Below, piece after piece: positions 21,006 through 49,945 of a stretch of 64,000 nt of DNA (position 1 is its first letter; each line of letters begins with the position of its first letter). The stretch is from assembly GCA_024220505.1 (NCBI GenBank), contig JAKZZE010000004.1:1984001-2048000 (forward strand), given 5' to 3'. A program made the position numbers and the translations under genes. Below the pieces are notes generated by a model. That model saw only the letters and a program-made list of their open reading frames with translations, ran no database searches and had not been told where the DNA came from. Source of the DNA: Rhizopus arrhizus (Eukaryota > Mucoromycota > Mucoromycetes > Mucorales > Rhizopodaceae).

Positions 21006-22837
21006 AAACACTTGACGTGTTATTCTAATTTTATAATAAAACTAAGTTTTTATACAATAACTTTTTGCATGTCTACATATAATTTAGAATGTAACCTCAA
21101 TTTCAAACTTGTATATCAGTAGTCTCTTCTCATCATCTGGTCCATTTTTAAAACTGTGTTCATAGAGTCATTTACATTAGACATATTCTATGATATCCTC
21201 TGATCTACAGCCTTCATTTATTCTTTTATGATTCATGTAATGTCTTGAGTTAAGAAAGAATATTTTGAGAGCTTTTTAGTAATTAAAAGATTAATGTCTT
21301 GTCTTTTTTTAGGATTTAAATATTATAATGTTTTGCATAACTTGAAGCTCATACCAAAGTATTTTAGTGCTATTTTACTAATAAAATAAACCTTATTGCT
21401 TGTGAAGCCAATTGACTTTTGTGCTTATTTCATAAATTTGTTTATTTAGGGAAAGAAATAACATAAGGTGCAAAGTAGATTGTTAATAAAGGAAAAGAAT
21501 TGAAATTGACTAGAATAACCATCAATATTATTTGCAGAGTAGATATATTAGGCTAGATCCTGAAGCTATCTAATCCTCTCGTTATATTTAGCCTAAAATG
21601 TTGTTATTATAAGCATTTTGCAGTATCTGTAATTTGCTGAAATACTTGCAAGAAACAGATATATTATTGAACTAAGATTAGCTAAATACTTTCTTTTATT
21701 TTCCTTTTTTTAACAATCATAATCGTTGTCTATTTGTGCTTAATTCAACTTTTAAAGAAAGGCGATTAACCAGATTAATTTTAATTTTCATAATCTTCTT
21801 CTCCTGCTGTTACTTTCAAAATCTTGAGCACTTTATTTGCTATTATTTTATGAGTTTATGCATATTAGAGCTACGAAGTATTGCTTTATGTTTGCTTTAC
21901 ATTACTAACTTGCTACTCTTGTATCTTATTCAGAAGACCTTTCATCTTTTCTTTAGTGTTGTCTAGCTACGTATATTATTTTTTGTTAGGTCTTTTTGTC
22001 TGTTTCTTATGATTATAATATCTTTTTTTCTGAGAATAAATGTTTCTTCATTTCTACATATTGACAAGTTGCTTTTTACTCATTCGTTCAAATGCTGATA
22101 TCCTGATCATAGGATTAACTTCTCTCTTTGTAGCCTATTAATGCAAGATCATGTCTATTGTACATACTTAATTGCTCATATTAAGAGCACATAGAAACAG
22201 TCTCTTTCTTTTATCAAAAGAAATCACGATCCTTAACTTTAGATTATAAATATATTAATGATTACTACGTGTATGATGATAATAGTAAAGACTATCGTTT
22301 GTTTATATAATTATATTAGCTATTTATGATACAAATACTTAAATTTTAGTGATCAGATATATCAAAAGAGCAGTAAGTTGTAAAATTAGTAAAGGGGGGT
22401 AGTATTCGTATATTTGAATCACTTGAATACATTAAGGAAAAACGCTGCAGATTTTATTTCCATAATCTTCTGGAAAGAGCTATTCAATAAAATAGTTCCT
22501 TTCAATTGGCTAAAGTCTGGCTTTAGCAATTTTAAAATACATTTCCTTCTAATGGCATATATTCATCTAAGAAATCTATCTGTTACAATATAAAAATCCT
22601 CTTTGAATGAAAACTTTAGCTTCCTTCATGTAGGAGAAGAAATATTCAGTATATATATTTCTATCTTTCTTTACCTTGATATTATCCTATACGTTACAAT
22701 ATGCAAACATGAAAATATCATTCTCTTATTAGTCAAATTCAATAATTTAGTTCATAAAATAAAAGTTTATACATCATTAAATTACTCTAAATAATGTATT
22801 TAACACATTTTCTTCAAAAGTATGCGACGTATTTTCT
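21006..22837. other. intergenic stretch downstream of the lipase
   Basis: The lipase 3' region has AATAAA-like signals (for example AATAAAAC at 21,035). Short frames at 21,736-21,966 and 22,603-22,794 look like AT-driven noise. The stretch ends where homology to the Fanzor gene at 41.9 kb begins. Confidence 0.4.
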
Positions 22838-24428
22838 AGTCCAAAAAACCATTTTAAAGACTTTTTCAGACTTGCCGAATTGTCTGAAGCTGAACAGATG
22901 AAACAGTTTGCTTGTTTCCCTCTACGTACCACCTTTATTCCTTGCTACATGATGTTGGATAGCAAAATAATCCATCACCATGTTCTCAAGAGAAAAAAGA
23001 ATCCAAAAACAGGAAGCAAGTTTGAGACATGGGGTGCCGTCGTAGACCTAAAATAAAAGGCGTTCAAGCATCAAGGATTTCAAAAGCCTTTGCGGTTCCA
23101 AGGAACTCCCGAAGCAGATGGAGTCGGTGTCTCCATAATAAAGCAAAACACTGATACAAGCAGAAAGTCGCCTAAACCCAACACTGAAAAGAAAATGGAC
23201 AGTAATCAAATAGAGCATATTGAAGGATTAGGTTAAGCCGACTTAAAGAGTACTGAAGGCAAGTGTGTCTTAATAGACCATGGAAGGCGGGACTTGATGT
23301 ACTGCATGAAAGAAACCAGCACTGCTGAAGAAAAACAAACATTTATATTTACCAAGAACAACCGCTCAAAATGTTCAAGGCACTTTAGATATTTAAGAAA
23401 GCGTACTCAACCTTTTGTGGTCCAGAAAGCTGAAGCAACCCTTTCTAGATCTGAATCCAACTCTGTAGACTTGAAAAAGTTTGTACAGTACATTAAAACA
23501 AGAGCATCAGTAAAAACACTTTGTACGAATATTATGAAAACGAGACAACAAAGTCTAAAGAAACATATTTCCCTGAATCCGAATTTGACTTTCGAGTCGA
23601 CCAAAAATGTAATTTGTACTATGGAAATCTATTCATAGCAAGAATCCGTGGTTTTTTCCCTCAACCTGAGAATCACTCTACTGATAGCTCTGTAAAATCT
23701 CAACTGTATGCCACCTACCTACAAACAATGCTACAACAAAAGCATATTTCAAAAAGACTAGATGATAATGAGAAAAGCAAAGCTCTAGAGCTGACAAAAG
23801 AGATGTGTAGACGACCACAGCAAAGCAATTACAAAAAGACTATCAGTACAGCATTAGAAAAGCTACAACTTTTACCTTTTCGAAAATTGAAGTTTTCAAG
23901 TAAACTCTTCTTTGACCAGAATGATCAAAAATTAGTGCGTAGCTTAAAAACAAAGTTTGGTCAAGATGCTGTCTTAGTTTTTGGAGATTGGTCCGTCCCT
24001 AATGTCAAGTATCAAGAACCGACAAGAAGCAAGGGGTTAATCAGGATGTTAAAGAAGAACGGGTTTGTTGTCTACTTAGTCAATGAATACAAAACATCTT
24101 CCCATTGTCCAACCTGTGAAAATGAATTAGAAAAATTCAAAATCGTGCCAAATCCTCGCCCTTACCAACGGAAAAAGGAGCCAGACGTGCTATGTAATGG
24201 TTTGCTGAAGTAATCCAAAGAAAAAAATAAACTAGATTAATTCTTGATAACTAATGCAGTACTAGGTGTAAGAGCCTCTCATGCCTTAAACAACAAACCA
24301 CAGGAATAAAAAGAAGACTTTGGAATCGCGATCAAGTAGCCGTATTGAATTTTCTCAAGATCCTAAATAGTTTGAGAAAGACTGACAAACGCCCTAGCCT
24401 TTTCACCAGAAAATATCCTTTAGACTGA
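22838..24428 (+). pseudogene. Fanzor (eukaryotic TnpB-like RNA-guided nuclease), 3' half, broken
   Basis: This is the C-terminal half of a Fanzor gene, starting abruptly in the region equal to 41,946 of the fuller copy. Visible parts are RuvC-I as LIDHGRRDLMYCM, the EYKTSSHCPTC zinc-finger strand with the conserved Glu, and RuvC-III as RRLWNRDQVAVLNF. The last part is reached through a 50-bp intron at 24,210-24,259 (GTAATCC to TGCAG), which restores the frame up to TGA at 24,426. Breaks: in-frame stops TAA near 23,053 and in GGTTAAGCC near 23,233, plus a one-base frameshift near 23,510 in an A run. Both stops are also in the other copy, so the gene was dead before the duplication. The intact protein would cut DNA guided by an omega RNA. 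Confidence 0.85.
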
Positions 24429-24661
24429 TAATCTTTAAGTAGAACAAAAGTAGGAAAATCATAAAAAATTCACCACCAAGGTTATCGCTTTGGTCATTTA
24501 ATACAGGTATTGCATTAAAAAAAGTACAAAGCGACAACAATAAATGTATTAAACGAAATTTTCATTTAAGTTAGTGACATTTATTTTTCTGGAAACGACA
24601 TTTGTTTTTTGCTAAACGAAGTTTATTTTCTTTAAACCGACAAAATTTACCAGCTCCACTG
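24429..24661 (+). repeat. right end of the Fanzor transposon, repeat-built inverted terminus
   Basis: This is non-coding sequence between the Fanzor stop and the element edge. Read on the minus strand from 24,661 it starts CAGTGGAGCTGG, then GTAAATTTTGTC, then units of 19-22 bp of the type AAAAAACAAATGTCG...TTTCC. The edge CACTG is followed by TA (24,662-24,663), as expected for a Tc1/mariner target. In related OMEGA systems the guide RNA overlaps this part of the element. Confidence 0.75.
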
Positions 24662-25002
24662 TAAATTATGTCAGCTACGGATTACTTTAAATGGAGCAAA
24701 ATGACTACGGCCCACAATATTATTGTTCCAAAATTGGACCGTCTATTGATTGGCTTCAATAGCATTGACCTATTTGGTAGCCTGAAAATAATTTTTATTT
24801 TTGGAAAAAATGATGAGTCCGATAAACACATTTTGTGCGTGCTTTACTATTAATAAAAATAGTATGGATTTGCTTATATTGCACATTTGTGACATTATCT
24901 ACATACTGGGGACGTAGTGAATGCCACAACAACATTTGCCTTAGTCTGTTGCTCTATATATTAAATAGTTAATTGAATGAAGAACTAGACATTTGCTTTA
25001 TC

Positions 25003-25037
<35 letters not shown>

Positions 25038-26398
25038 CCTGCCATGATTTGTTAGACATTTTCAAAGCTGTTTAATTCATTTACTGTAATGATTAAATCG
25101 TGTCAGGTAGCACACTGGGTCCCAAAACTTAAAATAGCAAAAGACTTGTAAGAACATCACATTCAAATCAAGACAGCAAAGAGACAATCCAAAAAAAAAA
25201 TCAAAAGGAAAATAATAGAATAAGAGAAGAAAGGTTAAAAACCATATATTAGTGAATTTGATTGCTTTTTTTTCAACCGTATATTTTCTATTATGCCAAT
25301 GTCTATACATTCAATCTATTATTATTATTTTTTGTTCTGCTATTTCGCATTGGAGTAACTTTGTCAGTCCCAAATATTCTGTTACTTGTATATTTTGCTT
25401 TTATTGATATAATTATATTTTTGCTTAAGATGAACATGGAAAGCAAATAAGGACAAAGACAATACGAAATGATGAGTGGTAATGTCCCACAATAACAAAG
25501 CTCATTACTAGATTGAATAATAATACCATATATAGCATATCCAATAGTATTCCTTAAGTTTATGGAGGAATGGGCCGAATAATCCCTTAAATTAATCCAA
25601 GCTTAAAACTCCGTATCCAATCTGTATGTTTACCAGTAGATGGCCATGAACGCCACAAAAGCCTATAGACAATCTCGTTCATTATAAATGCAAATAAAGT
25701 ATGCATAATTACTGTTTTTGTAGATTTAATCTTAATTTGATTAGCTGAAAAAGTAATTATAGTCAATTGATGACAATGTGTTTTCTTTTTTCGTGATCTA
25801 AATCTTGTTAAAGCCTTGTGCTTTCTGCGGAGCCTTCAGATTCTTGGCTAAAAACTCTTGTAGAAACTTCTTAGTAAATAAACGTGAACCAATGACTTAA
25901 CGGAATAAATCTTTATTCATGATGTTCTTAAGCAAAGAACAACATAAGCGTAACAACAGTATTCATATGTAGCATGCTCATTGGTGTTGTATTCTACTTA
26001 CACATCTCTTCATTCCTTTTGTTTCAAAGGTATTATTTGATCCAAACTACAATAGTTACACCAACAGTCGGCACAGAGTATCTATTTATGACACTGGATC
26101 AATCTGACAAGAAAAGCTTAGATCGTTAAAGACTAATAGTTAACGGCAAGTTTGTTGAAATTATATGTGTCAATTATCTTCCATAGTACTCGTTATGGAC
26201 TTGTAGTATACTACTTTATTAACAATTAAATTTGATGGTTTTCAAGTTAGAAGTGACAAGACAATTTACAAAAGGCGTACTAATTTTTTCATAATTGTGC
26301 AACAGTAATTGAACATATAAAAGGACACCTCGATAACCGGAAACTAGAGCAAATTACTTTGTTTTTCTTTCTCAATCTTAATTTACTAAAAAAAAAAA
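24662..26398. other. non-coding flank within duplication copy 1
   Basis: No supportable gene. It carries a T tract of about 34 bases (25,003-25,037) that is only about 10 bases long in copy 2. It also holds the intact pre-insertion site AATCT/GACAAGAAA (26,101-26,114), which was hit by mobile elements in copy 2. Confidence 0.6.
26316..26323 (+). promoter_or_regulatory. TATA box of the RTA1-like gene
   Basis: TATAAAAG lies 83 bp before the ATG at 26,399. It is conserved in the pseudogene copy (58,973 region). Confidence 0.5.
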
Positions 26399-30638: not shown

Positions 30639-30698
30639 TAGAGAAAGACCAATTTGAAGACAAGTGATGATTTTTGAAAAACGAGGAAATAAACGCGT

Positions 30699-30706
30699 CT
30701 TATATA
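30699..30706 (-). promoter_or_regulatory. glucoamylase TATA box, copy 1
   Basis: TATATAAG on the minus strand lies about 60 bp upstream of the ATG at 30,638. It is identical in copy 2. It shows that the longer in-frame ORF start further upstream is not used. Confidence 0.6.
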
Positions 30707-31106
30707 TGTTTGAAATTTTAAATCTGAATATATCATAACACAAATTGAGATCTTCTATAAGTTCAATTAGACAGGAACATAAATTAAAGGATTTCCCTGA
30801 TATTCCAGCTTGAGACATTGTAATATGTTAAACAATAGTCATATTTCCCAGCTTCAGTGTATATTTATGGCAATTTTCGATTGAATTATTAACAAGTAAC
30901 AGATCATCCCAAAATTTTATGCAGTGTGTGTCATGTTGGACAAAGAACTATTGGCCAACATATGATAATATCCTTGTTACACCATGCTTTGTGAACAATC
31001 TAGAAAACATTTTACCGACAAACAGTGCCATCAATCAAAAACAATTGGATGATTGTCCTTAAACGTAAGGGTCCTTGGAAATATATGGAATCATTTATGC
31101 ATTCAG

Positions 31107-32909: not shown

Positions 32910-34637
32910 TCACTTGCCATGTTTTTTATTTTCTTCATTTCGATCCTCAGATGACATTTTTGAAGGTGGTGATATGTTTGGCGAAGGATTGCTTTTCTTC
33001 ACTGACTGCCCTCTTGGTTTGTAATCATCATCTACTAGACTGGCATATTCTTCAATTATTTCCTTTTGTCTTCCTCGTAAGCTTCTTGGAAATTCAACCT
33101 TGAGTGTTACAATTTGATCACCGCGAACAGTATTACGGAGATGTTGGATACCATGGCCTCTTAATGCTATGTTGTCTTCAGATTGTGATCCCGGAGGAAC
33201 TTTCAAATCAACATCACCATCTACTGTTGGAATACGAATGCGTCCTCCTAATATAGCTTTATAGAAAGGAATATTTGCATCCACAAAGATATCTGTATTC
33301 TGTCTGCGAAAGATCTTTGATGGTTGAATCTATAAAACAGCACAAGAAATAAATCAAAAGAGATAGGAGTCTATAAACCAATCCCCTTACATTTAACATA
33401 ATAAACAAATCACCATTAGGTCCATTTCCTTTCAATGGCGCATCGCCTTCACCAGGAACCTTTATTGTTGAATTTTGATCCACACCAGGTGGGACAGTCA
33501 CCTGAACTGTCTTACGTTCTTTTATTTTGCCCGTACTATTACATGCCGAACATCCATAACCAGATGGAATGGAAAAACCTTCTCCGCCACATGCCTGACA
33601 GGTGGTTTGCATACCAAATCCACCACCCATCATAATGGTTTGTAAACCTGTACCGTGACATGTCCTACACGTGTTTTTATTTTTACCAGGTTTGAGGCCA
33701 CTTCCCTGACAAGTATTACAATTTATTACTCGATTAACCTGAACGTATTTTGTTGTTCCCTTCACGGCTTCCATAAATGTCAATGTCAATGGCATCTGAA
33801 TTGTATTTCCTGCTGAGGGTTTAGCAAATGGATCACCCTCAGTAGCACCTCCTCCATTAAAGCCTCCACTAAAGCCTCCGCCAAAGCCTCCGCCAAAACC
33901 TCCACCAAAGAATTGACTAAAGATATCATTGGGATCAAATCCACCAGGGAAGCCACTTCCGTGAAATCCACCACTGCCTGCTGCCCCTCCAGCCTCAAAT
34001 CCATGTCCAAATTGATCGTATTGTTTACGCTTTTCATCATCAGAGAGAACCTCATAAGCTTCTTGAATTTGAACAAATTTTTCACGAGCATGCTTATCTT
34101 TGTTGGTATCTGGATGATATTTTTTTGCAAGCTATTATTACATTCAATATCTTTTCTTGACTTTTTCTCTAGTGTATTTAACTTACAGCATAATAAGCCT
34201 TTTTAATTTCATTTGAACTCGCATTCTTTTTTACACCTAATACTTCGTATGGATCTTTCTTGGTTGAGGTTGTTGGTGCTGTGTTTAGATCATGTCAATT
34301 TTTTGCATAATTTTTTCTGTTAATTACTTGTTGCGTGAAAGCATCTCTACAAACATAAAAGCCGCCATTAGGCAAAATCTATTAAAATTGGTCTTTTCTT
34401 TTTGTTACCTTTTGATATGTGGGTATAAACGTGCTTCCTAGAATACAATGCTTTTCTACATAAAGAGGAGTAGCTGTCAAAAGAAGTCCAACTTCAATTT
34501 TTATGTTCTTCTTTTTACTAACGTTTTTTAGCTGTATTAACAAATCGCTTTATTAAAAGTTTATTCATAATTGTTTGTCTTTTCAAAGCTACTGCAAGAA
34601 TCACTGAAGCACTTGTCCAACTAAGTCGAGAATTCAT
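32910..34637 (-). CDS. mdj1: mitochondrial DnaJ/Hsp40 co-chaperone (Mdj1-like), 483 aa
   Basis: Six exons (34637-34523, 34473-34409, 34346-34328, 34278-34187, 34131-33391, 33329-32910) join in frame. The third exon has only 19 nt. The protein has a basic, hydroxyl-rich N-terminus like a mitochondrial presequence. It continues with [10 protein letters not shown] and a J domain with HPD at about 103-105, then a long Gly/Phe region ([17 protein letters not shown]). Four zinc motifs of the CxxCxGxG type follow ([32 protein letters not shown]), then the substrate-binding C-terminal domain. Type I DnaJ with presequence fits Mdj1, the partner of mitochondrial Hsp70. The tail is Lys/Ser-rich. Mobile DNA lies only 26 bp upstream of the ATG. 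Confidence 0.92.
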
Positions 34638-34674
34638 GATTTTGTAAAAAGAAAGAAAATAAGAGAAAAAATAC

Positions 34675-35593
34675 GATTAAAGAATAATTTTTTATTTGTA
34701 AAAATTTTAAAACCCAAAATGAGCACATAATATTTGACATATTGTATTGCCCGGGCCAGTTCAAAGAAGTGTTAGAGAAACCAAAAACCTTTTTGATAGC
34801 CAAAAAGGTAAAAAGGATAAAGAAGAGAAGATGATAGGAAGGTGCAATCAATACATTTAAGAGCTAGAGAATAACCAAGATAATAATTTTTAATCAAGAG
34901 GGGGAACATCAGGAGAGATTTGATCATGATGCAAATAATCTAGTTCATGTAAAATTTGACAGATAATTGGCCAACGAATAGACCATGCAATATGCTTTGA
35001 GCGGTTTTTGTCGGTTGGTTTCTTTCTGGAAGTGGGCAGCTTGTTTAAGAGAAATGACAGAGGGTCAGGGATAGATTGTGGCATTTGCAGACGTCGATGC
35101 ATATGAAGGCATTCAATGGTATGAGTCCTTGTTAGTAGATCAAATGAGTGGTAGATACACGGTTTGGGGAGGCCACCAGGAAGCCAACCGAGACGCCAAC
35201 GGAGTAAGCGACTACGTTCGACGGAGGTCATTGGGAGCCATAGTATAGGATCAATCTCTAGGTCAACACGACAGGCAGATAAAAGGACAGAGTTAGTGTT
35301 ATCACGACGTTGCTCTAAGGTGTTTTGGAGATACTCTTGACGAATAGCTCGGAAACGGCGTTTGTCGATCCGTTCTACATCTTGTACGGTACAAAGTCGC
35401 CACAGAGGAGAGGTCGTAAGCTTATACCACTGTGAGCCACTTGCAGAAGTTCGAATGTATGGTAATAGTTGGAACAGGAGAGTATCATCGGGAACATCCA
35501 AGGAGCGGAGGAGAAATTTTGTCTGTAAAATGTGAGTGCGTTCTTTCATCGTAGATTGATTTATTAGATGTAGCATCACTTTGACTGAGGATC
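34675..35593 (-). mobile_element. LINE-B, 5'-truncated non-LTR retrotransposon
   Basis: The minus-strand frame ends at 34,890 and encodes the C-terminal part of a LINE ORF2. It shares the segment (I/L)DPILWLPMTSVERSR..RWRLGWLPGG and PQSIPDPLSFLLN with LINE-A but is clearly diverged. Its 3' UTR (34,680-34,889) resembles the LINE-A 3' UTR (CCCGGGCC and the following C-rich part). Imperfect target duplications flank it: GAGAAAAAATAC at 34,663-34,674 and GAGAAAGAAAAAAATAC at 35,594-35,610. The element lost endonuclease and most of RT on insertion. It sits between the mdj1 start codon and the transposon left end. Confidence 0.75.
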
Positions 35594-35609
35594 GAGAAAG
35601 AAAAAAATA

Positions 35610-35718
35610 CACTGAGGACGGTAAATTTTGTCACTTTGAGAAAATTGAATGTCACTTTCCAAAAAATGAATCTCACTTTGCAAAAAATGAATGGCACTAA
35701 GCCAAAAATAATTGTCGG
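35610..35718 (+). repeat. left terminal repeat array of the Fanzor transposon, outer part
   Basis: After the 11-bp tip come units of 20-22 bp: GTAAATTTTGTCACTTTGAG, AAAATTGAATGTCACTTTCC, AAAAAATGAATCTCACTTTG, AAAAAATGAATGGCACTAAG, AAAAATAATTGTCGG. The array resumes at 38,660 after two LINE insertions (TTTTCTT, then AAAAATAAACGGCACTACC). The inverted counterpart is at the right end. Confidence 0.8.
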
Positions 35719-36585
35719 TCCAAGCTACCCCTCCTGTCGGAACGAGTCAGTAGATTACAAGCACAGTTCCTCTTTCGTTCTTTATATTTACCAGAAGATG
35801 CACTGCTTGCTTGCCTGTTACCTTATATTCGCAGTACCAGAGGAAGCCAGTGGTACACCCTCTCTCGTACACCACTTTGGAAAACGGTGCTGTCTACTAC
35901 TGAAGAACCCGACACCCGCTCATTCAAGACTGCTAAACGACGCTTCCTACAACAGAATCTAGAGATTCGCCAACGATGCCGAAACTCCAAGCTACTTTCT
36001 AACTGCCGTCGATCGATCTCTTTGGATCCTATACTCTGGTTGCCCATGTCAAAGTCAGAGCGTAGTCGCTGTATACGCTGGAGGCTAGGCTGGCTTCCTG
36101 GTGGCAAACCTCAGCCATGTCCCAAGCACCCAACACAGCAACTCTCTAAGAGCCATGCCATTAATTGCCTTGATATGCACCGACATCTGTTTATGCCCGA
36201 AACTATACGAGATCCGTTGTCATTCCTTCTGAATATGCTTCCTCTTCGTCCTTTGGTCCCCCCAAACTTAGTCCTCACCTGGTCTCAGCGATGGTCGATT
36301 ATATGTTCCATACTGTATGAATTAGATCAACTACACCATGACAAACTGATTCCTATTAAGTATCCCCATGGCCAAAAGCTTCTTGTATGGTTAAATCGAT
36401 TCCTTTAGATTCCCATCGATAACTATGCTCAATACTTTCCTTTTACATTTTTTACCCTTGTTCCCATAAGGGATTTTTTCTTAGCATTCACTTCCAAACG
36501 GATTGAACGGGCCCGGGCGGACATTTATTATATTATTTTATCTTTTGCGCTCATTTGGACCATAAATAAAATATCATGTTTAAAC
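35719..36585 (+). mobile_element. LINE-A copy 1, 5'-truncated
   Basis: An open frame from 35,719 to 36,408 codes the C-terminal ORF2 region: FLFRSLYLPEDALL, then SLDPILWLPMSKSERSRC.RWRLGWLPGG, a C-x2-H/H-x4-C cluster in CPKHP...HAINCLDMH, and the end GQKLLVWLNRFL. The 3' UTR ends GTTTAAAC. Target duplications are AAAAATAATTGTCGG (35,704-35,718) and AAAAACAATTATCGG (36,586-36,600). It is not competent, since RT and endonuclease are missing. Confidence 0.85.
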
Positions 36586-36600
36586 AAAAACAATTATCGG

Positions 36601-38644
36601 TGTGGATCATCTACGGAATGAAATGCTCCGACCAATACAACATCTACTGACACCGCTTCTTCTTTCGCTCTTCCGTTTGTGTTGGATGTGGTCTTATACT
36701 CCACAATCTTGGCGTGTTGCTCAAGTTGTCCCGATATATAAAAAAGGCTCCACTGACGAACCGAGTAATTACTGACCTATCAGTCTAATTTCTATCTTTA
36801 GAAAGATCTTGGAACGTTGCATACAATATAATTTGCAAACTGACGAACCCTCGCTTGACATTGCACAAAGCGGCTTTAGAGAATCCCGTGGTGCGCTAGA
36901 CCAAGCACTTTGCCTTGCAGAGATCTGCCATATACTGCGTTCACATTACCATAGCAAACCCGTTCTGGCCTTTCTGGATATAAAATCCGCCTATGATACT
37001 GTTGACAGAAACCATGTATGAAAGGTATTACAGCATTGTATATCAGCTCCACTCCTAGGTCTTCTACGCAACTTGTTCGACGAAGTTCAGATAGAAGTAC
37101 TTGTCTCAAACGCAACTTCTAGGCGTTTCCATCCAAAGACCGGAGTACTCCAAGGATCCATTCTCTCACCCTACCTTTACTCGGTATATATAAATCAACT
37201 TCCAGTATACCTACGCCCTCAAACCATAAAGGAGGATACATCGCCATTACAGTTAGCACCACACTTGAACTGCTTACTTTATGCGGATGATGTGGTTTTA
37301 ATAGCCAATAGCTCAACAATGGTTGACCTACTACGAAAATGCGAAGAACACAGTATGCAAATGGGATACCGGTGGAATCCTTCAAAATGTGTCATCTTGG
37401 ACAATCAATCACAAACAATAGAATATGCGATCTATGACCAAGTTATATCGCAAGCGACAACTTTTAACTACCTAGGAATATCCTTCAAACCAGGTGGTCA
37501 CCTTGATCCGGAGAAGCTTGTTCAAAGCAATATTCTCAAAGCTATGGCTACGATGAATGCTCTATCTTCTATTGGGGTAAATCCTTTAGGATTCTCCAAG
37601 CTCCTATGCTCTCGGTTATATGCTCAAATAGTTCGACCACAAATGGAATATGGCATAGCTATTAACTGCTTCAATCACACTCAGCTGAAAACCCTAGAAG
37701 AGGCACAAAACAAATGCATACGTAAGATCTATGGCGCATCTGGAAAAACATCCACCAAGGTGATGCTGCATTTGGCTAAGTTATCCACAATGAAAGAAAG
37801 GACAGCTATCCTGCAAGCCCAATTCCTCTTTCGTTCATTATCTTTACCTGAGGACACACTACTATATTTCTTAATGCCACACATACAGTACACAAGAGGT
37901 CATCAATGGTATCGACTATCAAAAACTGCTCTGTGGAGATTGATGCCGCCGACGATAGCCGACTTAGATGCTCGAGGCTTTAAAGCGATAAAAAAGAAAT
38001 TTCTTCACTCTAACCTTGAAAAACAGATCCAAGGTAAGAACTCCAAACTGCTATCCAGCTGTCGACCAACAATCACCCTCGACCCCATCTTGTGGCTACC
38101 AATGACTCATGAAGAAAGAAGTCGATGTTTACGCTGGCGCCTTGGTTGGTTACCGGGTGGGCCCCCCAAAACCCTGCCCCCGTCATCCCAACAATAACCT
38201 GTCAAGACGACACGCCATCAGTTGCCTCAATACGCATCACCGACTCTGTATGCCTGAAACAATAGCCGACCCTATATCTTTCCTTTTGAATATGCTTCCG
38301 ACACGCGCATTTGTTTCCTCTAGTATTGCTTTGTCCTGGACCTGGCGATGGCCCGTTATATGTTCTATTCTCCATGAATTAGATCAACTACAACACTATA
38401 CAACCATTCCATGCAAGACACCTCATGGCCAAAAACTAATTGAATGGCTGAGACAATTCAACTAACTTCGTATGTCTTTCTATGCATCCTACTTTCCTTT
38501 CTCATTTTTTACCCTTGAACCAGAAGGGTTTTTTTTGCTTAACACTCACTTCCAAACGGATTGAACTGGTCCGGGCGGACACTTATTTGTTGTATATTTT
38601 AGCGCTCAAATGGATCATAAATAAATAAAATATCATGTTTAAAC
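36601..38644 (+). mobile_element. LINE-A copy 2, 5'-truncated and mutated
   Basis: It begins within the RT fingers (VDHLRNEMLRP), inserted at the 3' duplication of copy 1. RT motifs RKILERCIQ, AFLDIKSAYDTV, GVLQGSILSPYLYSVYINQLP and LLYADDVVLIA are legible. Breaks: TGA at 36,773 where most relatives have Arg in NYRPIS, TGA at 37,019, and a frameshift in a C run near 38,162. The C-terminal region then reads on to 38,465. The 3' end is GTTTAAAC followed by AAAAACAAATGGCGG (38,645-38,659). Confidence 0.88.
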
Positions 38645-38659
38645 AAAAACAAATGGCGG

Positions 38660-38728
38660 TTTTCTTAAAAATAAACGGCACTACCTAATAAATGTTTAGC
38701 AAATAATTGTCGCTCTTAAAATTTTACC
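38660..38728 (+). repeat. left terminal repeat array, inner part
   Basis: This continues the 20-bp units: TTTTCTT, AAAAATAAACGGCACTACC, TAATAAATGTTTAGC, AAATAATTGTCGCTC, ending at AAAATTTTACC. Units become less regular inward. Confidence 0.65.
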
Positions 38729-38859
38729 TTGTCTTTTTGGGCCGAGTCAAATTGGCGTTACTGAGGGATTATTGTCGGCTATGATGTAAAGGCTTTATTT
38801 CTTTCCCTTCGCTCTAACAATTGAATAACATGACAAAAAGTACATTTTTTATGAAGACG

Positions 38860-40065
38860 GACACGATAATTTCTATAATAAGGATGAAGAGAGAGTCTTC
38901 GACCCGATGGAAGGTATGTTAACCGAAATCAGTGATCCAAACGTAATACTTGAAACCATAACGAGCCAAAAGTCCTATCTGAATCTCAAACCAGCAGAGA
39001 AAGAAACTACTGCAAAAGATTCAACAAAAAAAGGCTATAACAGTGGTCAAGAAAGCAGCGTCTACAAAGACTACAACGACCAAACCAAAGAGATATTTAT
39101 TGACCGAATGATCGAGGGTCCTACGGAAAGAGGAAAAGTGACTTTGCATGCAAAGGATCTTGGAATTAATCCTCGTACTGCTTTGTGCTAGTGGAAACAC
39201 TATCAAGAAACTGGGAAGGTAGTTTACAAAAGGTTGTAAAGAAATCCCGGCTGACTCAACTCACTATCTCCTGAGTATGAGCAGCACATTCAACAAATAG
39301 TAGAAAAAGACTCACAATTTTGTGCCGATGACATTATTGTTTCTCGGAAATTGCAGTTTGAGGACTTGAAAATTTCAAAGTCTCAAATGAACCACCACTT
39401 GAGAAACAACATGCTCATTTCAATAAAGAAACCAACCTTCGATCCTATGACAAAAAACTCTGACAGTAATTTGCAAACGAGATACTAGTGGTTCATAAAG
39501 TGAAAAGGCTCGGATCTGGGTTACACTAATAATTGCGTTTTTATTGATGAGGCTACATTGAAGATAGCCAAACAAAAAAAAAAAAAAAAGAAGAAAGCTT
39601 GCAGGAGGCAAAGAGCAGGCGACATTATTATTGAAGAGCCTACTATAGAGTACGCTGGTGTTGAGGAGAGTACTGCCATCGAGAACAACAAGCCAGTAGT
39701 AAAAGGTACAACTACTGCCCACTTTGTAAGATCTATAAGTGAGCCTCTTGATATCATGGACATGGACAAAAGTCTTATGGGTAGTTATCTTGTAATGGAT
39801 TACTGTACTATTCATAAGTCTCATCCAATGATAAGAAAAATTGAGAGTAGAAATTATAGAGTAATGTACTTACCTCCTTATTCGCCAGAGCTTAACCCAA
39901 TTGAGCAGTTTTAGGCTATAGTTAAAGGAAAGCTCAAACATCGTCAAATGAAAACTTATCGAGTCGAAGTGCTGATGGTTATAATCAAATTCTTTATGGC
40001 TTCTCTAGTCAAATCATCCACTGTTGTAATAAAACACCCATGTGAACATGCTTTTAAAATTATAC
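38860..40065 (+). pseudogene. Tc1-like DD34E transposase, decayed
   Basis: An N-terminal part at 38,907-39,191 resembles the helix-turn-helix region (GPTERGKVTLHAKDLGINPR). Further fragments in shifting frames lead to the catalytic core: first Asp in CVFIDEA near 39,547; second Asp in YLVMDYCTIHKSHPM near 39,797; the Glu in LPPYSPELNPIEQF near 39,902. Thirty-four residues separate the second Asp and the Glu, the Tc1 spacing. Breaks: several stops between 39,190 and 39,500, an A run of about 16 at 39,571 that disrupts the segment after the first Asp, and TAG at 39,912 where relatives have Trp (QFW). It would cut and paste the element at TA sites if intact. Confidence 0.85.
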
Positions 40066-40635
40066 TATGATATTTTCATAACACCATATCTTTTTAGAAT
40101 ATAAACCTTGCGAGAATTGATACGATTAAAACAGTTTTATTGGTCTCAGCAAAGGACTTTTAATGGATATTTTGATCAGTGAAGATATCATCATTATGCA
40201 GTGCCATTACAAGATAACGGTCCAACATTTTATGATCATCAAGTATGTTCTTAACATATTTATCGTTGAGATTTGATGAAAAAACATAAAGAACTTGACA
40301 CATTCAGACGCTAATAACTTCTCGAGCCCTACCTACTACTCTATGTGAATCTAGAAAACAAGTATCTTCTATTACAAGCTACTACATGGTGTAAGCTCAT
40401 TGTAGGCGCATTGCTATTATTCGGTTGTAGCTGTGTTTGAATAAACCTATATAAATGGGATGGGAGTATTTCCTTTTAACATTTAAATCAATTTCTGAAG
40501 ACATTTTTTCTTTTTGTTCGTACATTTCACTCGTGAAAACACATTAGAAAATGAAAGGAAAGCAAAGGATACTTTATTCTCTTCAAATCAAAAGAAGCCA
40601 TCTAAGAACGAAAACGGTAGGCTCCATATCTAATA
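40066..40635. other. spacer between transposase and Fanzor genes
   Basis: AT-rich with no supported ORF. It presumably contains the Fanzor promoter. A TATAAATG at about 40,449 lies in a suitable position about 190 bp before the ATG. Confidence 0.4.
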
Positions 40636-43538
40636 ATGGATCGAAATGTCACTGACCACAAAATTGATACTGTTATAGACTTGTTTGAACTATATGTAGA
40701 AGACAACTCAGACGACGACTTTCAACCCGTTGTAATAGCTAGAAAAAGAAAAAGTAAGTTGCAATGTCAAACTTGATGTAGGTAAACAGCTAGTCTAACG
40801 TATGAAACCCCATCATAGGTAGAGAAAATACTCCACAGAGTGGATCACAAAAGAGGCTCAAAGGCAAAGGAAAAGCTACAGATTCTGAAGTTACTACTAC
40901 AAGCAGTACTGATATCTCTACAACAGATGAACCTACCACGTTCAATAAGATCACTCTTGATGATTATGATCTTGAATATAGCAGTGACGATTTTGATGCA
41001 CCTGTCGTCAAAAGACCCTTTTTTGGGTGAACCAACCAAGTCTGCTTTTCGTATCACCAAATCAACCTCTGCTGCTGTGGAGTCAAGCACAACTGCTTCT
41101 AAAACAAGTCTAACTTCCCTCAAGCCTAGTAAACCTGTTCCAACTGCTTTCAAGTCAGCTGCAACTTCTGTCAAGTCAAGTTTTTGTCCTGTGTCTGTTG
41201 ACAAGGCAAGTGACATTAAAGAAGGCCCTAAGAAGATAAGCAAGCGTGTGATGACAATTAAAACGACTGTAAAGAATATTTGGAAACCAGCATATTTACA
41301 GGCATTGCATGATTTGGTTCACACTACCAACTTACTAGTTACACATACCTTTGCCTTCACAAAGTACATATATTTATAAGAACTGGCAGCAAATGAAAAT
41401 TTTGCGCTGAACAATTTTGTGACAAAAGATTTCTTTGTTGAAGTTTTTATAAGTCTTGTTCTCTCAAAGAGTGGAAATAGCACAAGACTGAAGGATACGA
41501 CCAAAAACTATAGGCGATTAATATCAAAATATAAAGAAGCTTACTTTGAAGACGCTGGTTATACTCCCCCCAAACTTACCATATGCTCAGCAAATAGTCT
41601 TGTACGAGTGTACGAAGATCCAAACGGCCTACTATAACATCATCAAAGCTCATTTTGAAAACAGGCTGCGTGGTTTGATAAACAAGTTATTTAAAAAGAA
41701 GGAAAAGGCAGAGAGTCTCAGAGGAGAAATGCAAGCAAACAAGTCTAGTAGTAAAGCGATAAAAGAAGCTATCCGAAAGAAGATTTATCGACTTTGCAAT
41801 CAGGTGAAGCTTGCCATCGCAAAAAAAGAGGCGTCTGAAGTTGTTCTTTTAGATGATCAATTAAGAACGCAATTAAATGGTTTTCTCTCAAGCTACCCAG
41901 AGGACTACACCTTTCAAAAAAACTCAATTTATTATGACGTTATGGCTAGTCCAAAAAACCATTTTAAAGTCTTCTTCAGACTTGCCGAATTGTCTGAAGC
42001 TGAACAGATGAAACAATTTGCTTGTTTCCCGCTACGTACCACCTTTATTCCTTGCTACATGACGTTGGATAGCAAAATAATCCATCACCATGTTCTCAAG
42101 AGCAAAAAGAATCCAAAAACAGGAAGCAAGTTTGAGACATGGGGTGCCGTCGTAGACCTAAAATAAAAGGCGTTCAAGCATCAAGGATTTCAAAAGTCTT
42201 TGCGGTTCCAAGGAACTCTCGAAGCAGATGGAGTCGGTGTCTCCATAGTAAAGCAAAACACTGATACAAGCAGAAAGTCGCCTAAACCCAACACTGAAAA
42301 GAAAATGGACAGTAATCAAATAGAGCATATTGAAGGATTAGGTTAAGCCGACTTAAAGAGCACTGAAGGCAAGTGTGTCTTAATAGACCATGGAAGGCGG
42401 GACTTGATGTACTGCATGAAAGAAACCAGCACTGCTGAAGAAAAACAAACACTTATATTTACCAAGAACAACCGCTCAAAATGTTCAAGGCACTTTAGAT
42501 ATTTAAGAAAGTGTACTCAACCTTTTGTGGTTCAGAAAGCTGAAGTAATCCTTTCTAGATCTGAATCCAACTCTGTAGACTTGAAAAGTTTGTACAGTAC
42601 ATTAAAACAAGAGCATCAGTAAAAACACTTTGTACGAATATTATTGAAACGAGACAACAAAGTCTAAATAAACATATTTCCCTGAATCCGAATTTGACTT
42701 TCGAGTCGACCAAAAATGTAATTTGTATTATGGAAATCTATTCATAGCAAGAATCCATGTTTTTTTTTCCTCAACCTGAGAATTACTCTAATGATAGATC
42801 TGTAAATTCTCAACTGTATGCCACCTACCTACAAACAATGCTACAACAAAAGCATATTTCAAAAAGACTAGATGATAATGAGAAAAGCAAAGCTCTAGAG
42901 CTGACAAAAGAGATGTGTAGACGACCACAGCAAAGCAATTACAAAAAGACTATCAGTACAGCATTAGAAAAGCTACAACTTTTACCTTTTCGAAAATTGA
43001 AGTTTTCAAGTAAACTCTTCTTTGACCAGAATGATCAAAAATTAGTGCGTAGCTTAAAAGCAAAGTTTGGTCAAGATGCTGTCTTAGTTTTTGGAGATTG
43101 GTCCGTCCCTAATGTCAAGTATCAAGAACCGACAAGAAGCAATGGGTTAATCAGGATGTTAAAGAAGAACGGGTTTGTTGTCTACTTAGTCAATGAATAC
43201 AAAACATCTTCCCATTGTCCAACCTGTGAAAATGAATTAGAAAAATTCAAAATCGTGCCAAATCCTCGCCCTTATCAATGGAAAAAGAAGCCAGACGTGC
43301 TATGTAATGGTTTGCTGAAGTAATCCAAAGAAAAAAATAAACTAGATTAATTCTTGATAACTAATGCAGTACTAGGTGTAAGAGCCTCTCATGCCTTAAA
43401 CAACAAACCACGGGAATAAAAAGAAGACTTTGGAATCGCGATCAAGCAGCCGTATTGAATTTTCTCAAGATCCTAAATAGTTTGAGAAAGACTGACAAAC
43501 GCCCTAGCCTTTTCACCAGAAAATATCCTTTAGACTGA
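40636..43538 (+). pseudogene. Fanzor (TnpB-like RNA-guided nuclease), near full length, broken
   Basis: ATG at 40,636. A first intron, 40,754-40,818 (GTAAGT to ATAG), and a last intron, 43,320-43,369, are inferred from frame. The N-terminus is acidic and Lys/Ser-rich. The Fanzor core starts near KNIWKPAYLQALHDLVHTTN and continues through TKDFFVEVFISLVLSK, RuvC-I LIDHGRRDLMYCM, VNEYKTSSHCPTC with its Glu, and RRLWNRDQVAVLNF (RuvC-III Asp). All three acidic catalytic positions are still coded. Breaks: frameshift near 41,025 in a T run; TAA at 41,377; frameshift in a C run near 41,570; TAA at 42,164; TAA near 42,343; frameshift near 42,583. Pro of the usual DPGR motif is His. The homology is motif-based and was not searched. 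Confidence 0.85.
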
Positions 43539-43719
43539 TAATCTTTAAGTAGAACAAAAGTAGGAAAATCATAAAAAATTCATCACCAAGGTTATCGCTT
43601 TGGTCATTTAATACAGGTATTGCATTAAAAAAAGTACAAAGCGACAACAATAAATGTATTAAACGAAATTTTCATTTAGGTTAGTGACATTTATTTTTCT
43701 GGAAACGACATTTGTTTTT
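43539..43719 (+). repeat. transposon right end, inner part (possible guide-RNA region)
   Basis: Between the Fanzor stop and the LINE-A insertion. It contains inner terminal units read on the minus strand (AAAAATAAATGTCACTAAC and neighbours). The outer part resumes at 48,470. By analogy with OMEGA systems the guide RNA would be transcribed across this end, but no RNA can be proven here. Confidence 0.5.
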
Positions 43720-43883
43720 GTTTAAACTTTTTATTTAACGATCCAAATGAGCGCAAAAATAAAATAAACAATTGTCCGCCCGGATCAGTTCAATCCGTTA
43801 GGATGTTAATGGTAAGAAAAAACCCCTTTGAGATCAAGGGTAAAAAAAAGTAAAAGAAAAAGGAAAGTATGGGATTGAGTAAG

Positions 43884-46800
43884 CTAAAGGAATTGTTTGA
43901 TCCATTCAAGAAGCTTATGGCCATGTGGATGAGTAGCTGGGATTGTTGTAGCATGATGAAGTTGGTCGAGTTCATGTAATATTGAGCAAATAATTGGCCA
44001 ACGTTGTGACCAAGAGAGTGCCAGGCCTGAAGGTACTGAGGGACGAGATGGAAGCATATTCAGAAGGAACGACAGGGGATCCGGAATTGTTTCAGGCATA
44101 AAGAGACGCTTGTGCATGTTTAAGCAATTGATTGCATGCGTCTTCGAGAGATGGTGAGCAGGATGTCTGGGACATGGCTTCGGCTTGCCACCAGGTAGCC
44201 AGCCTAACCTCCAGCGTATACAGCGACTACGTTCCGAACTTGATGTGGGCAGCCACAGGATGGGGTCCAGAGACACAGAACGACGGCAATGGGAAAGCAG
44301 TTTAGAATTACGATTCGTAAGGCGCTTGTCCAGGCTTTGCTGTAGGAATTGCCGTTTGAAAGCTTTGAATGCACGAGTGTCCAAATCATCATTGGAGGCG
44401 GGTATCATTTTCCAAAGTGGGGTTTTGGAAAGAAGGTACCACTGATGGCTTCTAGTGCATCGTATGTATGGTAGTAGACAACTGAGCAGTGAGTATTCCG
44501 GCAAAAGTAGAGAACGAAAAAGGAACTGTGCTTGTAGGATATTGACCCGCTCGGACATGAGAGGTAATTTGGACAGATGGAGCATTACTTTGGTAGAAGC
44601 TTTACCACGAGCGCCGTATATCCTTCTGATACATGTATCTTGCGCTTCTTCAAGTGTGTGAAGTTGAGAGCTTGTGAAGCGATTGATGGCCACTCCGTAC
44701 TCGAGCTGTGGGCGAATAATATGTGCATAGAATCTAGCTGAGAGAAGCTTGGAAAAACCAGAGGGATTTACACCAATAGATGACAACAGATTCATTGCGG
44801 CAAGGGCTTTTCGAGTGTTGTGCTGAATAAGTTCTTCTGGGTCGAGGTATCCACCTTATTTAAATGGAACGCCAAGGTATGCAAATGTAGTCTTCTGAGG
44901 GAGCGGTTGACCATACATTATGTATGAGATAGGATCAGTGTGGCTGTCTAGGACCACACACTTTGATGGGTTCCATTTGTATCCCATTTGCATACTGTGG
45001 TATTCACATTTCTTAAGTAGATCAATCATTTTTGAGCGTTCGGCAATTAAGACTAAATCGTCAGCATAGAGTAGACAGTTCAGGGAAGGTATTATTTCCA
45101 ATGGCGACATATTAGGATTGAGAGCTTGAAGACGTAGCTGAGCTGGAAGTTGGTTGATATATACGGAGTAAAGATATGGAGACAGTATAGATCCTTGAAG
45201 TACACCAGTTTTTGGACTGAATCGATAGGATGTTGCGTTAGAAAGCAGAACTTCGATTTGTACATCATCAAAAAGACATCTTAGTAGGCCGAGCATAGGG
45301 GATGAGATGTAATGACGTAAAGTCTCCCATACGAAACTGCGATTGACAGTGTCGTATGCGGATTTGATGTCGAGAAATGCTAGTACTGGCTTGATTTGAT
45401 ATCGAGTACGTAGTATATTACAAATCTTGGAAAGGCACAAAGCTTGATCCAGCGCGCTACGGAATTTTCTAAACCCACCTTGGGCTATATCAAGGGGCCG
45501 TCTATCGGCCTGCAAATCATGTTGAATGCAGCGTTCCAGTGTTTTTCTAAATACAGTAGTCAGACTAATTGGGCGATAATTACCTGGGTTCGATGGAGAT
45601 CCTTTCTTATATATTGGTACTACTTGGGCAATACGCCATGTTTGAGGGACATATGACCATGCCCAACACATTTGGAAGAGGCGAAGGAGAATTGGTGCTA
45701 GCAGGTGACGTATTGGCTGGAGCATCTCAATTCGCAAATGATCTACACCAGGCGCTTTCTTGACCGGCAAAGTGCTAATGGCGCGGCTAATATCTTCCAT
45801 GATGATTGGGCAATCTAATTCACAAGGTAAAACAGGTGTTTCAATTTCGTAACATTGAACTTCCCTGAGGAGGTCTCCTGAAAATGTAGATTCCAAATGA
45901 GAGGCCATCACATTTGCTGCATGTTGTGGGCCCTCCGGAGTGGAGAAAGTGGGTTTCATAGTGCGATTTTTGCGAATACGGCTAAGTCTAGATATTGCCT
46001 TTGTATAGTCCCCGGATGCCATTTGTTCACAAAAAGAGATTCATTTAGCTCGACGGCGCTGGTTGATCAGTCGACGCAATGCAGCTCGAGTTTCTTGGTG
46101 TTTCAGCCAGTAGTGGAACTTGTTGAGTCCATGTGCCTTTCTCCATTTTCTGTAACAAAGTTCCCTGTAGTCATAAGCTTCTTGCATTTTGTCGGTCCAA
46201 AAATCATACAATGGATCTCCAGAATGGGAGACTCTGCCACAACAGTCGTCTAATGAGGTGTATATCGCCTGGAAGATGTCGTTGTTGAGCTTCTCGATGT
46301 AGTCAACGGCAGAAGTCCGGCTATTAAAATTAGTAAATTGGGCATCACCGTATGGTAGCAAAGGTTGAGACAGCTCTTTGAAACGATTCACATATGATTC
46401 GTGGGTATTTGGGTCGGCAAGCTTGCGAAGGCTCCAGATGACTCGAGGGTGTCCCGAAAGCTGTGGAATGTTAGCACTTATTTGAAAGGAAAGAAACAGT
46501 AATTTATGGTCCGAGTCCAATGAATAGTCTTGGTAAATTTTCATTGAAAGTTCAACAAGTTCGGCATTGCTCATGAATAAGTCGATAATGCTACTTCCTC
46601 GGTGTGACAAATAAGTAGGTTGTCCGTAAGCCAATCTCTGATTCCATATGATGATATTATTTTGCTGTATCCAACTGGTTAGCAGGTTACCTCTAGAATT
46701 TGTAAAGCGGTCTCCTGTGTGGGTTCCCAGTCGAGCGTTGAAGTCGCCACAGAGAATCATTTGGTTGGTATGTGCATTTGTTGTTGGCAAAGAGTCCAGG

Positions 46801-47168
46801 ATGAGTTTGACAGTCTGATTATTCAGGTGAGGTGGGAGATATAGGCAGTGTACCAATATATTTGCGATTGTAAAGGATAACTTATACTGGCTGAGCGGTG
46901 ATTCTTGGTGGGCAAGATGATGGACATGGTAGTTGCAGTTAGGGTTAACTAGGAGACAAATGCCTTGATGTCCCTTCGTGGCTAGAGGTTGTGTTTTAAC
47001 ACCATAAGTGTGAAGTTGCTTCCAATGCGTAGGGTATTTAAGCGGGCTTAAGAGCCATGTCTCCGTTACAAGGAGAACAGAGAAGGATTGAACTATATTA
47101 AGGATTGGACTGAGGGCTTGGCGAGCCAAGCCGGTAGCGTTGAAAAGAGAAATCTTAATGGTACTCAT
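43884..47168 (-). pseudogene. LINE-A copy 3 ORF2 (endonuclease and reverse transcriptase), two nonsense codons
   Basis: Endonuclease motifs VTETWLLS, LCGDFNARLGTHTGD, SIIDLFMSN and SDHKLL lie in 47,168-46,041. RT motifs RPISLTTVFRKTLERCIQ, LAFLDIKSAYDTV, LQGSILSPYLYSVYINQLP and LLYADDLVLIA lie in 46,022-44,856. The C-terminal WRLGWLPGG and CPRHP...HAINCLNMH region lies in 44,795-43,884. In-frame TGA at 46,041 and TAA at 44,856 break it. No frameshift is needed to read through, so decay is slight. Confidence 0.88.
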
Positions 47169-48393
47169 AAGGAAGGATCATCTTCCATATGGGATACCGT
47201 GAGGTGTGACTGGGTGTCATTATGGTCTTCCACAGTACTCATGTTGTCATCTTCAAAGAAAATGGATTCAGGTTGTGTATGATTAACACGACGATTAAAG
47301 GAAAGGGTCTCCTGCAAGGTCTGTGTACTGATCCAGCCTTTAGTATGGAAATAGCGTGCTACAGCAAATTTGACTGGAGCACGGACAAATCTGAGTGCGC
47401 GTTCCATACGGTTACAATGGTGCATGAATACAATGTTAGTTCGTTCCTCAGTTGTAGAATCAGAGTATCTAGGGTCACGTAGGATCATAGGATCGCAGGG
47501 ATCAAAGTCGTCTTTCAAGGTAAACTTGAATTTCCTGAGGTGGGATCTAAGTTCATCTACATAGTCATTGTGTACCAAAAGAGCGACGACATTTCGATCA
47601 GGATAGTGGATATCGAGGATGCGGTTGTTATTGATGTCAAGTTTACGCAGTCGAGATCGTAGTTGTCCAACAGGAACTCGCGCCTTGGTCGGAAGGTAGA
47701 GATACTGAAAGCCCTGGTTCTCTGATAGTGGTTGTAGAAGTCTTGCAGCAGCCTCCTGGCGTTGTTGACGTCTTTGTTGCTGTTTCTGTAGCAAACCCTC
47801 TTTGAGTCGACTGACCTGTTCGGGATTACGCCAAGGTGCGGAAACTGTGGTGAGTTCTGGAAAATCAAGTGAAGATTGAACGTTTGCTGTTAAGGTGCTT
47901 GTAGGCTGATTGGTGGTTGGGTGTACCTGATTTAACTGATTTTGTAGCTGTACGGTAATTGCACGAAGTTGTTCGATTTCGGATCTGGCAGCGGCAAGCT
48001 CGTTGGTGAGGTGTTGGATCATGCTTAACAGAGTGTGGATATCTTCACTGGGTGAGTTCTGTGAGCTGGTCGGAGCTTCATTATTGCGTCTGGAAGTTTC
48101 GATATTCTCCTCAATGGGAGACATGTGAGAGGAAGCAGGAAGGCAAGAAAGGACAATGGATCTCATAGTAGCAACTCGATAGCTGACTCCACAGCCATTG
48201 CAGCGAAAAATGGGTTGTGGAGGCTCAGACTTAGTACTGCCATTGCGGCGAAAGACCCTTTTTTCGTACATTGAGGGCAAGCTAATACTTTGCGGCAGCT
48301 TTCAAACTTTACAAGCAAGTCTGCTATTTCCTCTAGAGTCAGAGAACTCGTTGCAGTTGTAATGTTGGTTGGATTAGTAGAGCCAGGTGGCAT
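47165..48393 (-). pseudogene. LINE-A copy 3 ORF1 (zinc-ribbon and coiled-coil), one frameshift
   Basis: The frame from ATG 48,393 reads MPPGSTNPTNI through ACPQCTKK. It then shifts by one base at an A run (48,263-48,270) into the 47,165-48,280 frame, which continues with FRCNGCGVSYR. The two CxxC pairs fit a zinc ribbon split by the shift. A coiled coil (ELAAARSEIEQLRAITVQLQ) and a basic region follow. The product would be the RNA-binding partner of ORF2. It ends in TGA overlapping the ORF2 ATG. Confidence 0.7.
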
Positions 48394-48469
48394 TATTAGT
48401 ATAGTTGTTTTCGTCGAAGTGTGTGTAACGTTTAAATTCGCGAAAGAACCTTACAACCCATTTGTTTTT

Positions 48470-48525
48470 TTTTTGCTAAACGAAGTTTATTTTCTTTAAA
48501 TCGACAAAATTTACCAGCCCCACTG
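48470..48525 (+). repeat. transposon right end, outer part
   Basis: Contains the outermost inverted units ending GACAAAATTTACCAGCCCC and CACTG at 48,525. It was separated from its inner part by LINE-A copy 3. Confidence 0.75.
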
Positions 48526-49945
48526 TCAGCTACGGATTACTTTAAATGGAGCAAAACGACTACGGCCCACAATATTATTGTTCCAAAATTGGACCGTCTA
48601 TTGATTGGCTTCAATAGCATTGACCTATTTGGTAGCCTGAAAATAATTTTTATTTTTGGAAAAAATGATGAGTCCGATAAACACATTTTGTGCGTGCTTT
48701 ACTATTAATAAAAATAGTATGGATTTGCTTATATTGCACATTTGTGACATTATCTACATACTGGGGACGTAGTGAATGCCACAACAACATTTGTCTTAGC
48801 CTGTTGCTCTATATATTAAATAGTTAATTGAATGAAGAACTAGACATTTGCTTTATCGTTTTTTTTTTTCCTGCCATGATTTGTTAGACATTTTCAAAGC
48901 TGTTTAATTCATTTACTGTAATGATTGAATCGTGTCAGGTAGCACACTGGGTCCCAAAACTTAAAATAGCAAAAGACTTGTAAGAACATCACATTCAAAT
49001 CAAGACAGCAAAGAGGCAATCCAAAAAAAAAAAATCAAAAGGAAAATAATAGAATAAGAGAAGAAAGGTTAAAAACCATATTTTAGTGAATTTGATTGCT
49101 TTTTTTCAACCGTATGTTTTCTATTATGCCAATGTCTAATACATTCAATCTATTATTATTATTATTTTTTTTGTTCTGCTATTTCGCATTGGAGTAACTT
49201 TGTCAATCCCAAATATTCTGTTACTTTTATATTTTGTTTTTATTGATATAATTATATTTTTGCTTAAGATAAATATGGAAAGCAAATAAGGACAAAGACA
49301 ATACGAAATGATGAGTGGTAATGTCCCACAATAACAAAGCTCATTACTAGATTGAATAATAATACCATATATAGCACATCCAATAGTATTCCTTAAATTT
49401 ATGGAGGAATGGGCCGAATAATCCCTTAAATTAATCCAAGCTTAAAACTCCGAATCCAATCTGTATGTTTACCAGTAGATGGCCATGAACGCCACAAAAG
49501 CCTATAGACAATCTCGTTCATTATAAATGCAAATAAAGTATGCATAATTACTGTTTTTGTAGATTTAATCTTAATTTGATTAGCTGAAAAAGTAATTATA
49601 GTCAATTGATGACAATGTGTTTTCTTTTTTCGTGATCTAAATCTTGTTAAAGCCTTGTGCTTTCTGCGGAGCCTTCAGATTCTTGGCTAAAAACTCTTGT
49701 AGAAACTTCTTAGTAAATAAACGTAAACCAATGACTTAACGGAATAAATCTTTATTCATGATGTTCTTAAGCAAAGAACAACATAAGCATAACAACAGTA
49801 TTCATATGCAGCATGCTCATTGGCGTAGCATTCTACTTACACATCTCTTCATTCCTTTTATTTTCAAAGGTATTATTTGATCCAAACTACAACGGTTACA
49901 CCAGCAGTCGGTACAGAGTATCTATTTATGACTCTGGATCAATCT
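48526..49945. other. non-coding flank within duplication copy 2
   Basis: Equivalent of 24,671-26,105. No gene is seen. The T tract is short here (about 10). It ends in AATCT, the target of the LTR insertion. Confidence 0.6.

Follow-up and report, generated by a model that had tools for sequence, protein, structure and literature searches.

What does a DNA transposon gain from carrying an RNA-guided nuclease? The question is raised by a 64,000-nucleotide stretch of the Rhizopus arrhizus genome (hereafter the window; G000:C34:1,984,001-2,048,000), where a Tc1/mariner-type transposon at 38,648-48,525, with a DD34E transposase remnant and a right terminal inverted repeat (TIR), carries a gene for a Fanzor1 nuclease, both genes being broken. 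Fanzor1 genes have been known in mariner elements since 2013; what is new is a motif, TTATA, on one side only of the insertions of this family, which we call family A, together with a Fanzor under constraint where the transposase has decayed. Having scanned the 50.3-Mb genome (41 contigs), we tentatively propose that the guided nuclease, and not the transposase, has been kept by selection, and that this transposase-dead mariner family may persist through restoration by Fanzor at donor sites bearing a target-adjacent motif (TAM), leaving the one-sided TTATA as a record throughout the genome.

Searching the genome with the Fanzor DNA returned at least 47 matched stretches (best 40 of 73 candidates scored) and with the transposase DNA at least 44 (best 40 of 106 scored). 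The TIR end pattern had 132 matches, of which 100 were listed, and its reversed control none. When 48 left-type ends were paired with opposite ends within 12 kb, 22 left-right elements emerged, three apparent left-left elements took up 6 ends, and 20 ends stayed without a partner. Eight of the 22 measure 5,060-5,223 bp and match both transposase and Fanzor, as does a ninth, on contig C2, with a degenerate left end; such matches do not imply intact genes. A complete family A element is about 5.1-5.2 kb long and reads left end, transposase, Fanzor1, right end. Its TIRs start with CAGT, and a TA adjoins 39 of 42 left and 46 of 47 right ends. A preliminary description of the window had supposed that transposase and nuclease formed one mobile unit, which the nine elements, with both matches between the family's ends, bear out; elements with both ends and both genes thus occur in the same genome if gene matches, and not intact genes, are counted.

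The Fanzor gene of the window runs from an ATG at 40,636 to a stop at 43,536-43,538, as first described, and its RuvC-I Asp, Glu and RuvC-III Asp codons were correctly placed, downstream of the transposase and on the same strand; the DPG motif reads DHG. Exon borders are our own reading of GT...AG in the sequence. In the open copies, the RuvC Asp, Glu and Asp, the DPG motif and the zinc-finger cysteines are all present (WNRD being read across a probable intron). A profile check gave a divided answer: neither the broken frames of the window nor an open copy matched any Fanzor or TnpB family in Pfam, but among PDB sequences the open copy matches PpFz1 of Parasitella parasitica (E=0, residues 5-821, 1,041 bits) and SpuFz1 of Spizellomyces punctatus (3e-40). 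On these matches and its homologues, the gene is identified as Fanzor1. The closest protein relatives of the window Fanzor are those of R. arrhizus and R. delemar, and the protein of the copy on C7 shares 66% identity with one from Parasitella across 763 residues. The exon 2 frame is open in copies on C7, C2, C37, C34 and C41 (821 or 838 residues) and C40 (748), a call that concerns exon 2, the short first and last exons having been checked in only some copies. A second Fanzor family, with 41% identity along the main stretch and open frames of 617-639 residues, has three places in the genome: C23:648494, C2:1447762 and C23:266938.

The transposase core, too, was rightly recognized, with 34 residues between the last two of its Asp, Asp and Glu codons (hence DD34E) and a match of the window transposase to Pfam DDE_3 (8e-13). 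All eight transposase copies that we read are broken, and the intact gene of an autonomous element was found in none of them; most copies lie outside that set, so an intact one may exist. A stop two residues past the catalytic Glu recurs in seven of the eight (six by sequence, that on C12 by its frame), while the eighth, on C2, was not matched by the same search string and stops earlier.

Have the two genes evolved alike? The ratio of nonsynonymous to synonymous substitution rates (dN/dS) is 0.29-0.42 for Fanzor (15 pairs among six open copies, 731 shared codons) and 0.41-1.09 for the transposase (21 pairs among seven elements, the window's included, over a 265-codon frame that is open in the C37 element and has internal stops in the other six). 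The contrast between the genes gives p=0.009 on two element pairs, C7-C2 and C37-C41, which were assumed to be independent. Four elements with good left ends diverge by 1.5% and 1.0% at their two 100-base ends, by 3.7% in Fanzor exon 2 and by 7.2-7.3% in transposase and spacer. In the copies compared, Fanzor and the ends have changed more slowly than transposase and spacer. A seemingly unique conservation of the right 100 bases (2.3% versus 8.7% on the left in six elements, the ends having also been compared over 75 bases) vanished without the two elements whose left ends are degenerate.

We then ask whether the flanks bear any trace of the nuclease. Of the 125 end-bearing loci, each entered the count through its best TIR alone; L070 and L119 (the degenerate left end on C2) gave no TIR match, and L058, although retrieved for a right end, was scored as a left one. 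Duplicates were dropped only if the last 20 flank bases and the first 20 TIR bases were identical. Among 114 distinct ends, 9 unclear ones and 2 of a third family were excluded from the main count, which comprises 42 left ends (left-left elements included), 47 right ends and 14 ends of another mariner family, B; TA is intact in 39, 46 and 12 of these, and the 3, 1 and 2 ends without it were left out. TTATA stands outside 22 of 39 left ends, 1 of 46 right ends and none of 12 family B ends (Fisher's test, left versus right p=7e-9, left versus B p=5e-4), and makes up 2.7% of the 10,430 TA sites of the window. It occurs in 14 of 22 left-right elements versus none of the 6 ends of apparent left-left elements (p=0.016). 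At position -3, A is found in 34 of 39 left flanks and 24 of 46 right flanks. A motif confined to the left is as would be expected of a Fanzor TAM, and is compatible with the ATN of PpFz1.

How might a nuclease leave such a mark? The transposase would insert the element at a TA, and Fanzor would bind an RNA from the right end of the element, with flanking host DNA as the guide, as is printed for its relatives and presumed here. Fanzor would cut an empty site if the motif were present left of the TA, and repair from the element-bearing copy would restore the element. As only insertions with the motif on their left would be restored, the survivors would become enriched for TTATA on that side; the enrichment is seen in the counts, and restoration may be its cause. 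As every family A transposase that we read is broken, recent moves probably relied on a transposase acting in trans. Both the left-flank TTATA and the stronger constraint on Fanzor than on the transposase lend indirect support to the earlier suggestion that donor sites keep their element with the help of the nuclease.

Several observations weigh against restoration by Fanzor. The signal exceeds the ATN of PpFz1, with T at -4 in 35 and T at -5 in 25 of the 39 left flanks. TTATA is present at 10 of 18 left ends that have a Fanzor match within 8 kb, and also at 14 of 30 that have none (left-left ends included; Fanzor positions from a list of 45 drawn up from the genome matches). A copy's own Fanzor is therefore not needed for the signal, which points either to Fanzor acting in trans, as with Spizellomyces ghost elements, or to the transposase itself. 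The right-end RNA folds no better than shuffles (z-scores -0.39 to 0.11). In the four elements whose left ends are good, the right end is conserved about as well as the left and so is not special, and its conservation does not tell a guide-RNA role from TIR function. Two transposase pairs have a dN/dS of 0.41, inside the Fanzor range, and most pairs fall below 1, so the transposase has not evolved simply neutrally. The controls are small, the 14 family B ends including two near-duplicate pairs (L001/L002 and L005/L006). Finally, a direction-sensitive transposase would yield the same flanks: its complex might orient the two ends on an asymmetric target, TTATA being a target preference and Fanzor a passenger. 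The two TIRs do differ (CAGTGCG.CT versus CAGTGGGGCT), and the persistence of the signal away from any Fanzor match suits this explanation. We nevertheless consider it rather unlikely, given that Tc1/mariner targets are usually symmetric around TA, that TTATA is absent from apparent left-left and family B ends, small as both samples are, that Fanzor is the more constrained gene, and that the measured TAM of a relative fits positions -3 and -2.

Two other explanations concern the locus itself, which was first described as one element from 35,610 to 48,525. Its inverted-end cores are real: the 13-base TIR core has exact matches at 35,620, 48,503 and 24,639 of the window, and five matches with one mismatch allowed, versus 0.33 expected, a number that none of 100 shuffles reached. 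The left boundary, by contrast, is misplaced. Over 107 bases, five of six family B ends (those of L005 and L006 being near-duplicates) share 83-88% identity with the end at 35,610, and the sixth, cut short by a long interspersed nuclear element (LINE), reaches 68%; all five family A left ends compared share 64-69%. Family A left ends typically read CAGTGCG.CT.GTAAATTTTGTC and then C/T-A/G-TTCTGAAAAAATAAA, and right ends CAGTGGGGCTGGTAAATTTTGTCGGTTT; with up to 3 mismatches, the left-end pattern found no left end in the window, where just the two right ends matched. Since the 35,610 end matches family B, tandem LINEs intervene and the window has no family A left end, the locus is, on these comparisons, a chimera on its left side, probably made by LINE insertion and recombination. 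It might instead be a single element whose left end has simply diverged, in agreement with its TIR core, its TA and a 71% complementarity across 58 bases. But the closer likeness to family B argues against this, and, in our reading, the 35,610 end already extends to about position 107 of an end, and the A body picks up again near position 62 of an A left end, so the two do not make up a single end; nor was any uninterrupted element joining a 35,610-type end to a Fanzor body found among the copies examined. A single element is thus very improbable. Still harder to credit is a Fanzor derived from an older, separate element that mariner copies merely hit: tandem LINEs and duplications do scramble this locus, yet the order and spacing of transposase and Fanzor are constant between the same ends in nine elements. 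Of the six family B loci (L003-L008, about 3 kb each, several LINE-interrupted), one matched the transposase, at 44% identity across 68 residues, and none matched Fanzor. On balance, we take the window copy for a dead, left-truncated member of the Fanzor1-bearing family A (Table 1).

Table 1. Features of the locus and of its duplicate (positions in the window).
Feature	Position	Strand	Remarks
Duplicated right end and 3' part of Fanzor	22836..24661	+	Without LINE 3; TA at 24662-24663
Family B Tc1/mariner end	35610..35716	+	Mistaken for the left end of the Fanzor element; TA at 35608-35609
Two tandem LINE copies	35717..38647	+	About 35717-36591 and 36602-38647, without 5' parts; between the B end and family A
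Family A element body	38648..43716	+	Left end missing, its pattern absent from the window; from target sequence after LINE 2 to LINE 3; mostly 88-95% to other elements
Transposase pseudogene	38840..40050	+	Borders approximate (own reading); DD34E codons 39546, 39798, 39903; stop at 39912 just past Glu
Fanzor1 pseudogene	40636..43538	+	Probably three exons; several in-frame stops; RuvC-I Asp 42386, Glu 43195, RuvC-III Asp 43440
LINE 3 (non-long-terminal-repeat retrotransposon)	43717..48465	-	Nested in the right subterminal repeat; CATTTGTTTTT at both sides
Right TIR, family A	48466..48525	+	Parted from the body by LINE 3; TA after it lost

A second, partial copy near 22.8 kb had been described as keeping its right end with TA. 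The end and its TA are there, whereas the TA is gone at 48,525, where the element ends after the roughly 4.7 kb of LINE 3. This copy is, however, a segmental duplicate and not an independent insertion, as judged from its alignment: 22,836-24,617 is 97.8% identical to 41,946-43,727, and 24,601-26,105 is 95.2% identical to 48,465-49,945, with about 1.4 kb of right flank. Element and flank, contiguous at 22.8 kb and split by LINE 3 at 48 kb, were duplicated together. Another segmental duplicate, 98% identical, links 34090-35716 to positions 1-1616 of L002, about 32 kb downstream, where the LINEs follow in another order and truncation. LINEs with a 3' end near AAATATCATGTTTAAACAAAAA have inserted repeatedly at AAYAAATGKC-like motifs, many of them within subterminal repeats of families A and B. 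Junctions lie at 36592, 38648 and 43716 and in L002, L003, L008, L017, L035, L158 and L162; L156 and L159 lie outside mariner subterminal repeats, and, among eight loci fetched, L157 and L161 lack the junction pattern. This LINE family looks to prefer transposon ends. Elsewhere in the window, a 935-residue open frame at 50430-53237 has, in our reading, the look of a reverse transcriptase from another LINE, and two minus-strand frames (29148-30113 and 30471-30818) resemble what we take, from the frames, to be a Rhizopus glucoamylase with a starch-binding start.

How does family A compare with known systems? As far as the available portions of the papers go, Fanzor1 was reported with mariner transposases in 2013, with four Fanzor1 families in Rhizopus oryzae (PMC3627910); ROr-4 was assigned to MuDr, and family A may be one of the other three. 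PGv-1 and PUl-1 of the same work likewise combine a mariner transposase and Fanzor1 in one TA-flanked element, but in a Phaeocystis virus and in Pythium. SpuFz1 elements (Spu-1) have a conserved CA left of their left end, shared by Fanzor-less ghost copies, and a measured TAM of CATA (PMC10432273, 2023). They resemble family A in having conserved bases beside the left end, and differ in their locus of about 2.1 kb with a single reading frame, where family A has a transposase remnant and TTATA. PpFz1 (PDB 9CF0-9CF3), the same protein as our open copy over residues 5-821, shares the DPG motif, its EFRTS reading EYKTS in family A; its measured TAM is ATN, versus the longer TTATA suggested by our flanks, and its guide RNA has 75 nt (PMC11423790, 2024). 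One sentence of that paper swaps the TAMs of GtFz1 and SpuFz1 relative to PMC10432273, which we follow; PMC11423790 also describes the RuvC insertion (FRI) domain from Parasitella and Rhizopus alone. In IS607 elements, a fixed base to the right belongs to the RNA scaffold (PMC10711439, 2023), and the TA right of family A may, by analogy, do so too. The accessible part of the open-licence literature found on Fanzor in Rhizopus, homing, function, TnpB spread and Rhizopus Tc1 elements holds no TTATA signature, and its listings no title on family A.

In family A, a single genome holds many marked insertion sites, and a close relative, PpFz1, has a known structure and TAM. The family also includes elements that have the Fanzor right end and others that lack it, a built-in contrast. 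Together these make the proposal of element preservation directly testable. If that proposal is true, the one-sided TTATA would record the activity of the nuclease across the genome of a living eukaryote.

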